Part shown: in pieces, positions 1,535 through 9,378 of the stretch
How the letters are laid out: each line of letters starts with the position of its first letter
Numbering within the stretch: position 1 is the stretch's first letter
Source of the DNA: Pseudomonas synxantha
GTDB lineage: Bacteria > Pseudomonadota > Gammaproteobacteria > Pseudomonadales > Pseudomonadaceae
Assembly: GCA_945874835.1 (NCBI GenBank)
Contig: CAMCJM010000011.1
Location: forward strand, 1-34,589
DNA length: 34,589 nt
Direction: 5' to 3'
Position numbers and translations under genes: made by a program
The notes under the pieces: generated by a model
Seen by the model: the letters and a program-made list of their open reading frames with translations, nothing else
What the model was told of the DNA's origin: nothing
Databases searched by the model: none

Positions 1535-1627
1535 ACGCGAATGTATATTGTTTGTAAATAATCCCGGCTCGCATTAAAAGCCCACTAAAATCTCGCCGCA
1601 TTCCCGCAACCGCCTCAAGACTCCTCT

Positions 1628-2227
1628 ATGCCCCACTCCTTCTGGCTCGGCACCTTGCGCCAATGGCACTGGATCAGCTCGGCCTTATGCCTGGCTGGCA
1701 TGCTGTTATTTGCCGTCACCGGCATCACCCTCAACCACGCCGCGCAGATCGAGGCCAAGGCGCAGGTCACCACTCACCTGGCGCAATTACCCGTGCCGTT
1801 GCAGGCCTCGCTTAACGACAAGATGCCGACACAGGGCCTGCCTTTGGCACTGCGCCAATGGCTGGAAGCGGAGCTTTCGATTCGCCTGGATGGCCGCGAC
1901 GCCGAGTGGTCGGATGGCGAGTTGTATATCGGCCTGCCGCGCCCGGGTGGCGATGCCTGGCTGAGCCTGGATATCGACTCCGGCGCACTGGAATACGAGT
2001 CCACCGACCGGGGCTGGATCGCCTACCTAAACGACCTGCACAAAGGCCGCAACACCGGCACGGCCTGGTTCTGGTTTATCGATGTATTTGCCGTGTTGTG
2101 CGTGGTGTTCAGCCTCAGCGGTTTACTGCTGCTGCAACGCTACGCCGGCAACCGCCCAAGCACCTGGCCGATGGTGGGCTTGGGGCTGGTACTGCCTGTG
2201 CTGTTGGCTCTGCTGTTTATTCACTAA
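1628..2227 (+). CDS. PepSY-associated TM helix family protein (inner-membrane)
   Basis: 199 aa; N-terminal TM 'LRQWHWISSALCLAGMLLFAVTGITLNH', 'LNDLHKGRNTGTAWFWFIDVFAVLCVVFSLSGLLLL', C-terminal TM; typical of the PepSY_TM-like family. Confidence 0.85.
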   Translation: MPHSFWLGTLRQWHWISSALCLAGMLLFAVTGITLNHAAQIEAKAQVTTHLAQLPVPLQASLNDKMPTQGLPLALRQWLEAELSIRLDGRDAEWSDGELYIGLPRPGGDAWLSLDIDSGALEYESTDRGWIAYLNDLHKGRNTGTAWFWFIDVFAVLCVVFSLSGLLLLQRYAGNRPSTWPMVGLGLVLPVLLALLFIH

Positions 2228-2238
2228 GGACACTGTTA

Positions 2239-2750
2239 TGCCCAAACGCTTGCTGCTGCCCCTGTTCGCCCTGTTAAGCGCACCCGTTCTGGCTGCCGAG
2301 ATGCAGCTTGAAGTAGAGATTCCGCGCTTGCAGGTGGCTGAATACCACCGCCCTTACGTGGCCATCTGGCTGGAACAACCGGATCAGAAGCACGTCGCCA
2401 ACCTGGCCGTGTGGTACGACCAGAAGCTCAAGGATAAAGAAGGCGAAAAGTGGCTCAAGGACCTGCGCCAGTGGTGGCGACGCAGCGGCCGCAGCCTGCA
2501 AATGCCCATTGATGGCGTCAGCGGTGCAACCCGCGCCGTAGGGAAACAGCAACTGAGTTTCAACAGTGCCGATACACCACTCAAGCAACTCGCGCCCGGC
2601 GACTACAGCCTAGTGGTTGAGGCGGTGCGTGAAGTGGGCGGCCGCGAACTGCTGCGCTTGCCGTTCACCTGGCCGCCGCAGAAAACCGTCAGCCACAGCG
2701 CCCAGGGCAACAGCGAACTGGGTCAGATCAACCTGCAACTCAAGCCCTGA
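2239..2750 (+). CDS. DUF2271 domain-containing periplasmic protein
   Basis: ATG at 2239 (MPKRLLLPLFALLSAPVLAAEMQLEVEIPRL...), signal peptide, DUF2271-like 'YVAIWLE...VANLAVWYD...W...DGVSGATRAVG'. The longer ORF from 2082 overlaps the PepSY gene and is not the likely start. Confidence 0.8.
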
Positions 2751-2773
2751 CACCTCACTTAAGGAAGCCTGCC

Positions 2774-3649
2774 ATGCACCCACTCGTAAAATGGACCGCC
2801 CTGACCCTGGCCATCTGCCTGCCGCTGTCCGCCCAAGCGCACCGCGCCTGGATGCTGCCATCGGCCACCGTATTGTCCGGTGAAGACCCGTGGATCACCG
2901 TGGATGCAGCCGTGTCCAATGACCTGTTCTACTTCGAGCACTTCCCCCTGCGCATTCAGGGCATCGGCAACCTCGACACCACGCCCGCTGGCGGCCCACC
3001 GGGCATGCGCCCACGCCCAGCCGCCGTGCTGCAACTGTTCGCCCCGGATGGCAGCGCCGCCAAAGCCGAGAACGGCAACATCGGCCGCTACCGCAGCACC
3101 TTTGATCTGCACCTCACGCAGAAAGGCACCTACAAACTGGCCATCGCCAACAGCGGCCTGTTTGCCAGCTGGAAAGAAGGCGAGGAAAACAAGCGCTGGA
3201 TGGGCAAGGCCGAAGATTTCGCCAAGCAGGTACCGGCCAACGCCGCCGAGATGAAAGTGGCGCAGAACAGCAGCCGCATGGAAGTCTTCGTCACCTCCGG
3301 CAACCCGACCACCAGCGTGCTGAAAACCACCGGTATGGGCCTGGAGCTAGCCCCTATCACTCACCCCAATGACCTGTTCGCCGGTGAAGCGGCTGAGTTC
3401 ACCCTGCTGCTCGACGGCAAACCGGCTGCTGGCGTGGAGGTCAACGTGATCCCCGGCGGCAACCGCTACCGCGACGGGCTGGGTGACATTAAAACCACCA
3501 GCGACGCCAACGGCAGCATCAGCATCACGTGGCCAAGCGCTGGCATGTATTGGCTGGAAGCCGAGTTGAGCAGCACAGAAGGCGTCGTAGCCCCGGCAAC
3601 CGAACGCCGCGCCAGCTACAGCGCCACTCTGGAAGTGCTCGCCCCCTGA
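2774..3649 (+). CDS. DUF4198 domain-containing periplasmic protein
   Basis: 291 aa with signal peptide (MHPLVKWTALTLAICLPLSAQA|HRAWMLPSATVL), DUF4198-like fold features (N-terminal HxxW after cleavage, C-terminal Ig-like segment). Confidence 0.8.
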   Translation: MHPLVKWTALTLAICLPLSAQAHRAWMLPSATVLSGEDPWITVDAAVSNDLFYFEHFPLRIQGIGNLDTTPAGGPPGMRPRPAAVLQLFAPDGSAAKAENGNIGRYRSTFDLHLTQKGTYKLAIANSGLFASWKEGEENKRWMGKAEDFAKQVPANAAEMKVAQNSSRMEVFVTSGNPTTSVLKTTGMGLELAPITHPNDLFAGEAAEFTLLLDGKPAAGVEVNVIPGGNRYRDGLGDIKTTSDANGSISITWPSAGMYWLEAELSSTEGVVAPATERRASYSATLEVLAP

Positions 3650-3656
3650 TACACCC

Positions 3657-3716
3657 GTAGCCCGGATGTAATCCGGGGGATCAATTGCCGCCATCCCCGG
3701 ATTGCATCCGGGCTAC
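3657..3716. repeat. REP/BIME-like inverted pair: GTAGCCCGGATGtAATCCGGGGGA ... TCCCCGGATTGCATCCGGGCTAC
   Basis: Two arms in inverted orientation with one mismatch; the same motif recurs at 10220-10243. Confidence 0.85.
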
Positions 3717-5300
3717 GCCATCCAACCTAAAGCCGGTCTACTCGCATTGCTCGCCTTTCCCGCACTTCGCGCCCCTCTGCGTCACTGGCCACTGCCGAGC
3801 TGCCTGCTGCTGGCGGGCCTGTTGTTGTGGCTGCATCCGCCGCGCGAAATCAGCGCCGCCCTGATCGTCATCACCTACCTGGCCCTGTGCCTGCACTACG
3901 GCTGGCCACAGCGCCGCCCCCTGCTCGGCCAACCCGGCGAACTGCTGATCGGCTACGCCAGTCAGGGCGGTCAAGCCCAAGATCTCGCCGAGCGCAGCTG
4001 TGCGCAATTGCTGGCCAGTGGCGTGCCCGCGCGCTGCATCGCCCTCAATCAACTGAGCCTCGCCGAACTGCAAAGGCTTGATCGCCTGCTGCTGGTAGTC
4101 AGCACCTACGGCGACGGCGAAACCCCGGACAACGCCGCACGCTTCGAGCACAGCCTGCTTGAACAACCGCCACTGCCACAGTTGCGCTACGCCATCTTGG
4201 CCTTGGGCGACAGCAGCTACCCTCAGTTCTGCGCCTTTGGCCTGCGCCTGCAACAACGCCTGCACACACTCAAAGCGCAGCCGCTGTTCGACCTGCTGCA
4301 AGTCGATTGCCTGGACGCTGGCACCCTGCGCCACTGGCAACAACAGCTTGGCCACCTCAGCGGCAACAGTGATTTTGTCGATTGGCAACCGGCGCACTAT
4401 CGCCCTTGGCAACTGACCCAGCGCCAGTGCCTTAACCCCGGCAGCATCGGCGCACCGATCTATCACCTGCGCCTAAACAGCCCGGAGGCCGTGTACTGGC
4501 GCGCCGGCGATATCGTCGAAATCGGCCCACGCCATGCTTCGCAACGCGTCATCGACTGCCTGCAACATCTCGGTATTGATCCGCACCAGCGCCTGGCTGA
4601 CGGCCAATACCTAAGCGACGTGCTCAGTGCGCGCCACCTGCCCAGCAGCGGGCCAGATGCACAAGGCCTCGAATCCTGGCTGGCGGCACTGACGCCGCTG
4701 CCGCACCGCGAATACTCCATCGCCTCCAGCCACACCAGCGGCGCGCTTGATTTGTTGGTGCGCTTGCAGCACCAGGCGGACGGTCGCCCTGGATTGGGTT
4801 CAGGCTGGCTATGCCGACATGCCAACGTGAACAGCACGATCGACCTGCGCATCCGGCGCAACCCCGGTTTCCATGGCCCGGATGCCGCCACACCACTCAT
4901 CCTGATCGGCAGCGGCAGCGGCCTGGCCGGGCTGCGGGCGCACCTGCAAGAACGCGCTGCCTATACGCACACGCGCAACTGGCTGCTGTTTGGCGAACGT
5001 AACGCCGCCCACGACGCCTTGTTGATCGACGAGCTGAGCGCCTGGCAACACAGCGGCCACCTCGAACGCCTCGACCTCACCTACTCACGCGACGGTCACC
5101 CGCAGCGCTACGTACAAGATGCTCTGCGTGATGCCGCCAACACCCTGCACGCTTGGCTGGACGACGGCGCAGCCATTTACCTGTGCGGCAGCCTCGACGG
5201 CATGGGCCGCGATGTGGATGTTTGCCTGCGGCAACTGCTGGGGGATGATTACGTTGATGCGCTAAATCAGGCGGGACGTTATCGGCGGGATGTTTATTAG
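3702..5300 (+). CDS. Membrane-anchored flavodoxin/FNR-type NADPH flavoprotein reductase (sulfite reductase flavoprotein alpha-like)
   Basis: N-terminal TM segments, flavodoxin domain ('LIGYASQGGQAQDLAERS', 'VVSTYGDGETPDNA', 'ALGDSSYPQFCAFG'), FNR-like domain ('REYSIASS', 'PLILIGSGSGLAGLRA', 'LLFGERN', 'IYLCGSLDGMGRDV'). Start is a TTG inside the REP right arm, so the start is uncertain. Confidence 0.85.
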   Translation: MHPGYAIQPKAGLLALLAFPALRAPLRHWPLPSCLLLAGLLLWLHPPREISAALIVITYLALCLHYGWPQRRPLLGQPGELLIGYASQGGQAQDLAERSCAQLLASGVPARCIALNQLSLAELQRLDRLLLVVSTYGDGETPDNAARFEHSLLEQPPLPQLRYAILALGDSSYPQFCAFGLRLQQRLHTLKAQPLFDLLQVDCLDAGTLRHWQQQLGHLSGNSDFVDWQPAHYRPWQLTQRQCLNPGSIGAPIYHLRLNSPEAVYWRAGDIVEIGPRHASQRVIDCLQHLGIDPHQRLADGQYLSDVLSARHLPSSGPDAQGLESWLAALTPLPHREYSIASSHTSGALDLLVRLQHQADGRPGLGSGWLCRHANVNSTIDLRIRRNPGFHGPDAATPLILIGSGSGLAGLRAHLQERAAYTHTRNWLLFGERNAAHDALLIDELSAWQHSGHLERLDLTYSRDGHPQRYVQDALRDAANTLHAWLDDGAAIYLCGSLDGMGRDVDVCLRQLLGDDYVDALNQAGRYRRDVY

Positions 5301-8991: not shown

Positions 8992-9378
8992 TCAGCTCCC
9001 CTCGCCCGCTTGCGGGAGAGGGGCTGGGGGAGAGGGTTGCTTTTGCTCCACCCACAAACGTAATCGCTCAAGCACAGCATCCGTCTGCTGCAGCACTTCA
9101 TGGTTCCAAAAACGCAGCACAGTAAATCCCTGCTCTTTGAGCCAACAGTCGCGCCGCTGGTCATAAGCCAATTGCTCTGCATGCTGACCACCATCCAGCT
9201 CAATGATCAGACCTATCTCCAGGCACACGAAGTCCGCGATGTAATGGCCCAACGGCTTCTGCCGCTTGAACTTCAGCCCCATAAAGCGATGGGCGCGCAG
9301 TTGATGCCAAAGACACCGCTCTGCCTCGGTCATCTCACGCCGCAACGTTCTGGCACGCTCCCGTAACAGCCCGCCCAT
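8992..9378 (-). CDS. DUF559 domain-containing protein (Vsr-like / restriction-endonuclease-fold)
   Basis: 'ARTLRREMTEAERCLWHQLRAHRFMGLKFKRQKPLGHYIADFVCLEIGLIIELDGGQHAEQLAYDQRRDCWLKEQGFTVLRFWNHEV', the characteristic DUF559 pattern; the C-terminal PSPPAPLPQAGEGS is encoded by repeat copy C. Confidence 0.88.
   Translation of the reverse strand: MGGLLRERARTLRREMTEAERCLWHQLRAHRFMGLKFKRQKPLGHYIADFVCLEIGLIIELDGGQHAEQLAYDQRRDCWLKEQGFTVLRFWNHEVLQQTDAVLERLRLWVEQKQPSPPAPLPQAGEGS
8996..9036. repeat. Palindromic repeat copy C, overlapping the 3' end of the DUF559 ORF
   Basis: ctcccctcgcccgcttgcgggagaggggctgggggagaggg; same core palindrome. Confidence 0.8.

Follow-up and report, generated by a model that had tools for sequence, protein, structure and literature searches.

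A DUF2271 protein of Pseudomonas synxantha as a predicted covalently flavinylated electron carrier, likely served in trans by the ApbE of the Na+-NQR operon

Covalent flavinylation of DUF2271 proteins by ApbE has already been described at the family level. The survey to which the earlier note on this DNA alluded does exist (Meheust et al. 2021, eLife, PMC8238504); it showed that [S/T]GA[S/T] was conserved in 282 ApbE-associated DUF2271 proteins and that the DUF2271 protein of Amantichitinum ursilacus (WP_053936890.1) was covalently flavinylated by its cognate ApbE in E. coli, the signal being abolished in a Thr-to-Ala mutant. In the same study, 2833 PepSY-like clusters with DUF2271 and 1500 with DUF4198 were counted, and PepSY/DUF2271/DUF4198 clusters were described as likely periplasmic iron reductases (PMC8238504). 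The ApbE recognition sequence was given in a review as the seven residues D-x-x-[S/T]-G-A-[S/T] (PMC12052999), and an AlphaFold model was presented for a flavinylated DUF2271 protein of Shewanella (PMC11334425). In Caulobacter, expression of an operon of reductase, PepSY, DUF2271 and DUF4198 genes was reported to rise in iron-limited mutants, and insertions in any of these genes were linked to lower fitness in EDTA (PMC12004947). Two other described systems are comparable in part. In NqrC and NqrB of Na+-NQR, which are likewise extracytosolic or membrane proteins, FMN is bound covalently to the Thr of D-x-x-x-G-A-T, although their folds and complex differ from those of DUF2271. FoxB and VciB, as in the system considered here, are inner-membrane PepSY proteins proposed to reduce periplasmic ferric iron, with His-ligated haems in FoxB; no flavinylated partner of VciB is described in the literature consulted, unlike in the DUF2271 system. 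Because of Meheust et al. (2021) and the Shewanella and Caulobacter papers, the flavinylated reading of DUF2271 is known for the family, and the protein studied here is a well-supported new example of it.

The window, i.e., the whole stretch of 34,589 nucleotides analysed here, carries an operon of this type in the order TonB receptor, PepSY, DUF2271, DUF4198 and flavodoxin-FNR reductase (Table 1), with the PepSY gene ending 11 nt before the DUF2271 start. PepSY-like clusters are defined by a PepSY protein (PF03929 or PF16357) next to DUF2271 or some other flavinylation gene, and the one in the window belongs to PF16357. The same combination of PepSY, DUF2271, DUF4198 and flavin reductase is found in the PepSY-like clusters, including the iron-linked Caulobacter CCNA_03155-03159, whereas the window operon differs from the clusters of Meheust et al. 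(2021) in having no apbE and in having a TonB receptor gene attached. An apbE is frequent in PepSY-like clusters but not required; none was present in the window, in agreement with the earlier note, and none was present in 87 of 192 classified DUF2271 contexts. The PepSY-DUF2271-DUF4198 core recurred in many relatives, often with the flavodoxin-FNR gene behind it and a receptor gene in front. With the A. ursilacus protein the likeness is one of Pfam family, class of flavinylation motif and PepSY-like DUF2271/DUF4198 system type.

Table 1. Features of the operon, with positions in the window
Feature	Position	Strand	Evidence
TonB-dependent siderophore-receptor-like barrel, 5' end missing at contig edge	181..1494	+	Pfam PF00593 1.3e-51
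PepSY_TM_like_2 membrane protein, 199 aa, predicted transmembrane haem electron carrier	1628..2227	+	Pfam PF16357 4.6e-84
DUF2271 protein, predicted periplasmic covalent-FMN carrier, 170 aa	2238..2750	+	Pfam PF10029
ApbE recognition motif DGVSGAT, residues 92-98, predicted FMN acceptor Thr98	2511..2531 (Thr98 codon 2529-2531)	+	fits D-x-x-[S/T]-G-A-[S/T]
Secreted DUF4198 protein, 291 aa	2774..3649	+	Pfam PF10670 2e-54
Flavodoxin-FNR (CysJ-like) reductase, predicted cytosolic NAD(P)H input	3702..5300	+	Flavodoxin_1 3.6e-24, NAD_binding_1 2.4e-8 (Pfam)

The DUF2271 reading frame opens with an ATG, and the translation string quoted in the earlier note (MPIDGVSGATRAVGKQQLSF) matched it exactly. 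Its product was assigned to the family by PF10029 over residues 22-162 (E 1.6e-52), with 177.3 bits against a gathering cut-off of 27.3, and a signal peptide was recognisable by eye in the N-terminus (MPKRLLLPLFALLSAPVLAAE). Amino acid identity was 85% to the ortholog of a complete genome of the same genus and 97% to that of the MAG Pseudomonas sp. Ga0074129. A fold search of the AlphaFold model against the PDB gave nothing at E <= 0.001; C2-like sandwiches were the top matches at a TM of about 0.3, and they were dropped because none reached this threshold. A profile search of PDB sequences with DUF2271 gave spurious matches only and no PDB relative.

The DGVSGAT motif named in the earlier note was confirmed in this protein. 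No other match to D..[ST]GA[TS] was present among the 69,174 codons of the window's six reading frames; a rough hand estimate gave a chance expectation of about 0.4, so that the lone occurrence proves little by itself. The motif is significant because the acceptor was Thr or Ser in all 209 distinct DUF2271 domains (275 loci; Thr in 177, Ser in 32, no exception), with the Asp, Gly and Ala variable in a minority. Similarly, in a first homologue set at the level of the order, the Asp was found in 52 and a Thr or Ser acceptor in 53 of 53 distinct sequences. The alignment of homologues, which the earlier note had proposed as a check, was therefore positive.

It could be argued that the DGVSGAT loop is kept for structure or protein docking, with no flavin in this lineage. 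The Thr persists even in ApbE-fused domains where SGA has turned into RP or RE, and in the AlphaFold2 model (41 sequences, mean pLDDT 78.7, fold mostly beta) the motif formed a low-confidence loop between helix 74-82 and strand 102-109, with no pocket visible. However, a purely structural role is very improbable in view of the mutational and in-gel evidence from the homologue (PMC8238504), the universal co-occurrence of ApbE with DUF2271 in the genomes searched, and the pattern D-G-x-x-G-A-T that the loop shares with NqrB and NqrC of the same genome. Flavin attachment to the DUF2271 protein, as predicted from its sequence, is very likely and is the best-supported step of the mechanism proposed below.

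The only apbE found in the assembly (87% complete, 277 contigs) lies on a contig other than that of the window (G000:C115:8745-9587), and this result answers the earlier proposal to locate the gene in the genome. It directly follows nqrF and closes a complete nqrABCDEF-apbE operon unlinked to DUF2271, in contrast to the A. ursilacus protein, which was co-expressed with its cognate apbE. The motif of NqrB in this genome is DGFAGAT and that of NqrC is DGLAGAT, with Ala at position 4 where DUF2271 has Ser. With the only apbE unlinked and placed in an nqr operon whose NqrB and NqrC carry such motifs, it is therefore quite likely that DUF2271 is flavinylated in trans by the NQR-operon ApbE, and NqrB and NqrC would probably be served by the same enzyme.

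At 87% completeness, the assembly could have missed a second apbE, and a dedicated enzyme encoded in the unassembled part might flavinylate DUF2271 instead; many relatives outside the order, as well as G027 within it, do have an apbE in the cluster. This is improbable, however, as a single apbE, away from DUF2271, is present in each of three relatives listed as 100% complete (G212 from the same genus, G020 and G249 from the same family). ApbE was found in 60 of the 60 DUF2271-bearing genomes searched within the order. Among 398 genomes of the phylum, it was present in 75/75 of those with DUF2271 over the cut-off and in 207/323 others (Fisher p 2e-13, a value that ignores relatedness); ApbE is in any case widespread in the phylum, and the association is inflated by the relatedness of the genomes. 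The earlier reading of the protein as a covalently flavinylated carrier is supported by published flavinylation in the family, the conserved motif and the genomic apbE. It is adjusted in two respects: the flavinylation is not new for the family, and the ApbE involved is probably not a dedicated enzyme but one that also serves Na+-NQR.

The motif was also compared between apbE contexts. An apbE counted as adjacent when an ApbE profile made for this analysis matched within 5 kb, and 17 domains with <3.5 kb of flanking sequence on one side or the other were excluded, leaving the 192 classified. The pattern D..[ST][GSA]A[TS], with Asp and Ala kept, held in all 87 domains that lacked an apbE within this distance, whereas 32 of the 105 with an adjacent (96) or fused (9) apbE departed from it (Fisher p 3e-10, ignoring relatedness of loci). 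The departures beside an adjacent apbE were 16 changes of Ala to Pro and 8 replacements of the Asp by Asn or Ser; those in fused domains were 6 of Ala to Pro and 2 others. In a tree made without the motif columns, about 8 independent gains of departure were reconstructed, all on branches likewise reconstructed with apbE nearby, which represent 44% of branch length (P about 0.001). The pattern is suggestive only, because the reconstruction also needs 7 reversals and an independent-pairs sign test of motif drift against apbE context was underpowered. A single apbE was found in 13/13 genomes with the Ala-to-Pro change versus 17/30 of the other adjacent cases (phylum sample; p 0.004).

These results suggest that beside or within a dedicated ApbE the motif is free to change (Ala to Pro, Asp to Asn or Ser, Gly-Ala to Arg-Pro) as long as the acceptor Thr or Ser is kept, and that shared ApbE enzymes constrain it; the phylogenetic support is modest. 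On the simplest reading, which we put forward tentatively, DUF2271 may be bound to the consensus motif wherever its ApbE must also act on other proteins, e.g., those of NQR; as a part of this same speculative reading, the drift could mean that the substrate specificity of the dedicated ApbE enzymes has changed or loosened. No statement of such a constraint was found in the literature in a search that was not exhaustive. If it holds, one could tell from the motif sequence by itself which kind of ApbE, housekeeping or dedicated, a cluster uses, and ApbE enzymes of new specificity, useful for flavin-tagging of proteins, could be drawn from the variant clusters. Among the ApbE-fused DUF2271 domains (L061, L062, L065, L196-L201), eight of nine had lost Gly-Ala or more (RPT, RET, GPT) with the Thr kept, and L061 retained DGLSGAT with a fused ApbE that has no catalytic His. 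L061 would thus fit a rule by which the motif degenerates where the fused ApbE is intact and stays intact where that ApbE is broken, but this rule was weakened by L196 and L197, which have no such His and yet carry RPT.

Based on the gene content, a path of electrons to the periplasm can be proposed. The DUF2271 protein would be exported, after which ApbE, most likely that encoded at the end of the nqr operon and acting in trans, would attach FMN covalently to Thr98 using FAD. Electrons from cytosolic NAD(P)H would pass through the membrane-anchored flavodoxin-FNR protein, which has a hydrophobic N-terminus, to the haems of the inner-membrane PepSY protein, and from these to the FMN on Thr98. 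A ferric complex, brought into the periplasm via the TonB-dependent receptor, would then be reduced with release of Fe(II). Both this sequence of carriers and any part played by DUF4198 are inferred. In the PepSY protein H14, H37, H138 and H199 were conserved in 93, 86, 98 and 88% of 179 aligned rows, respectively, which is consistent with haem ligation as in FoxB. Taken as a whole, the model of a periplasmic FMN carrier, an NQR ApbE working in trans and a relay from PepSY to ferric iron appears likely.

The same flavinylated chain might act on a substrate other than a ferric siderophore, e.g., copper or free ferric iron, and the variation of the receptor beside the operon would fit this: it showed 45% amino acid identity to that of the sister MAG L092, and no receptor gene stood beside the operon in G212. 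However, the receptor matches were to siderophore-receptor families, and the data on VciB (PMC8238504) and Caulobacter (PMC12004947) point to iron, which makes another substrate unlikely; a ferric complex is the probable one. Literature and comparison together give the operon a well-founded annotation, namely a chain for iron uptake that carries electrons from NAD(P)H to the periplasm and needs covalent FMN.

Positions 1539-5297 of the window had 93% DNA identity to contig L092, and because the protein encoded by the receptor gene in front reached only the 45% given above, it seems from these identities that the reductase module stayed constant while the TonB receptor next to it was replaced. 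Homology of the window receptor to the 764-aa receptor of L092 started only at residue 314 of the latter. An in-frame stop at 169-171 precedes the receptor ORF, which is about 313 N-terminal residues short relative to L092, and the first ~159 nt of the window had no receptor homology; the gene may be truncated, or this may be an artefact of the contig end. No clear Fur box was seen in the 1401-1640 intergenic region or the first 180 nt of the window, and none is claimed because the best site matched only 11/19; a site with 17/19 matches lay upstream in the relative L094. A single search of a plasmid collection for the operon returned nothing relevant.

A REP-like palindrome (GTAGCCCGGATGTAATCCGGG...) lies between the DUF4198 and reductase genes (3653-3720). 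A reductase of 547 aa could be translated in L092 from an ATG within this palindrome. TAA follows that ATG in the window, so that a start at the TTG or later is likely; the product has 532 aa from that first possible start, the true start being uncertain. Elsewhere in the window, at 8992-9378 (-), a 128-aa ORF had by eye the look of a DUF559-type endonuclease, with a repeat-like SPPAPLPQAGEGS tail at its C-terminus.
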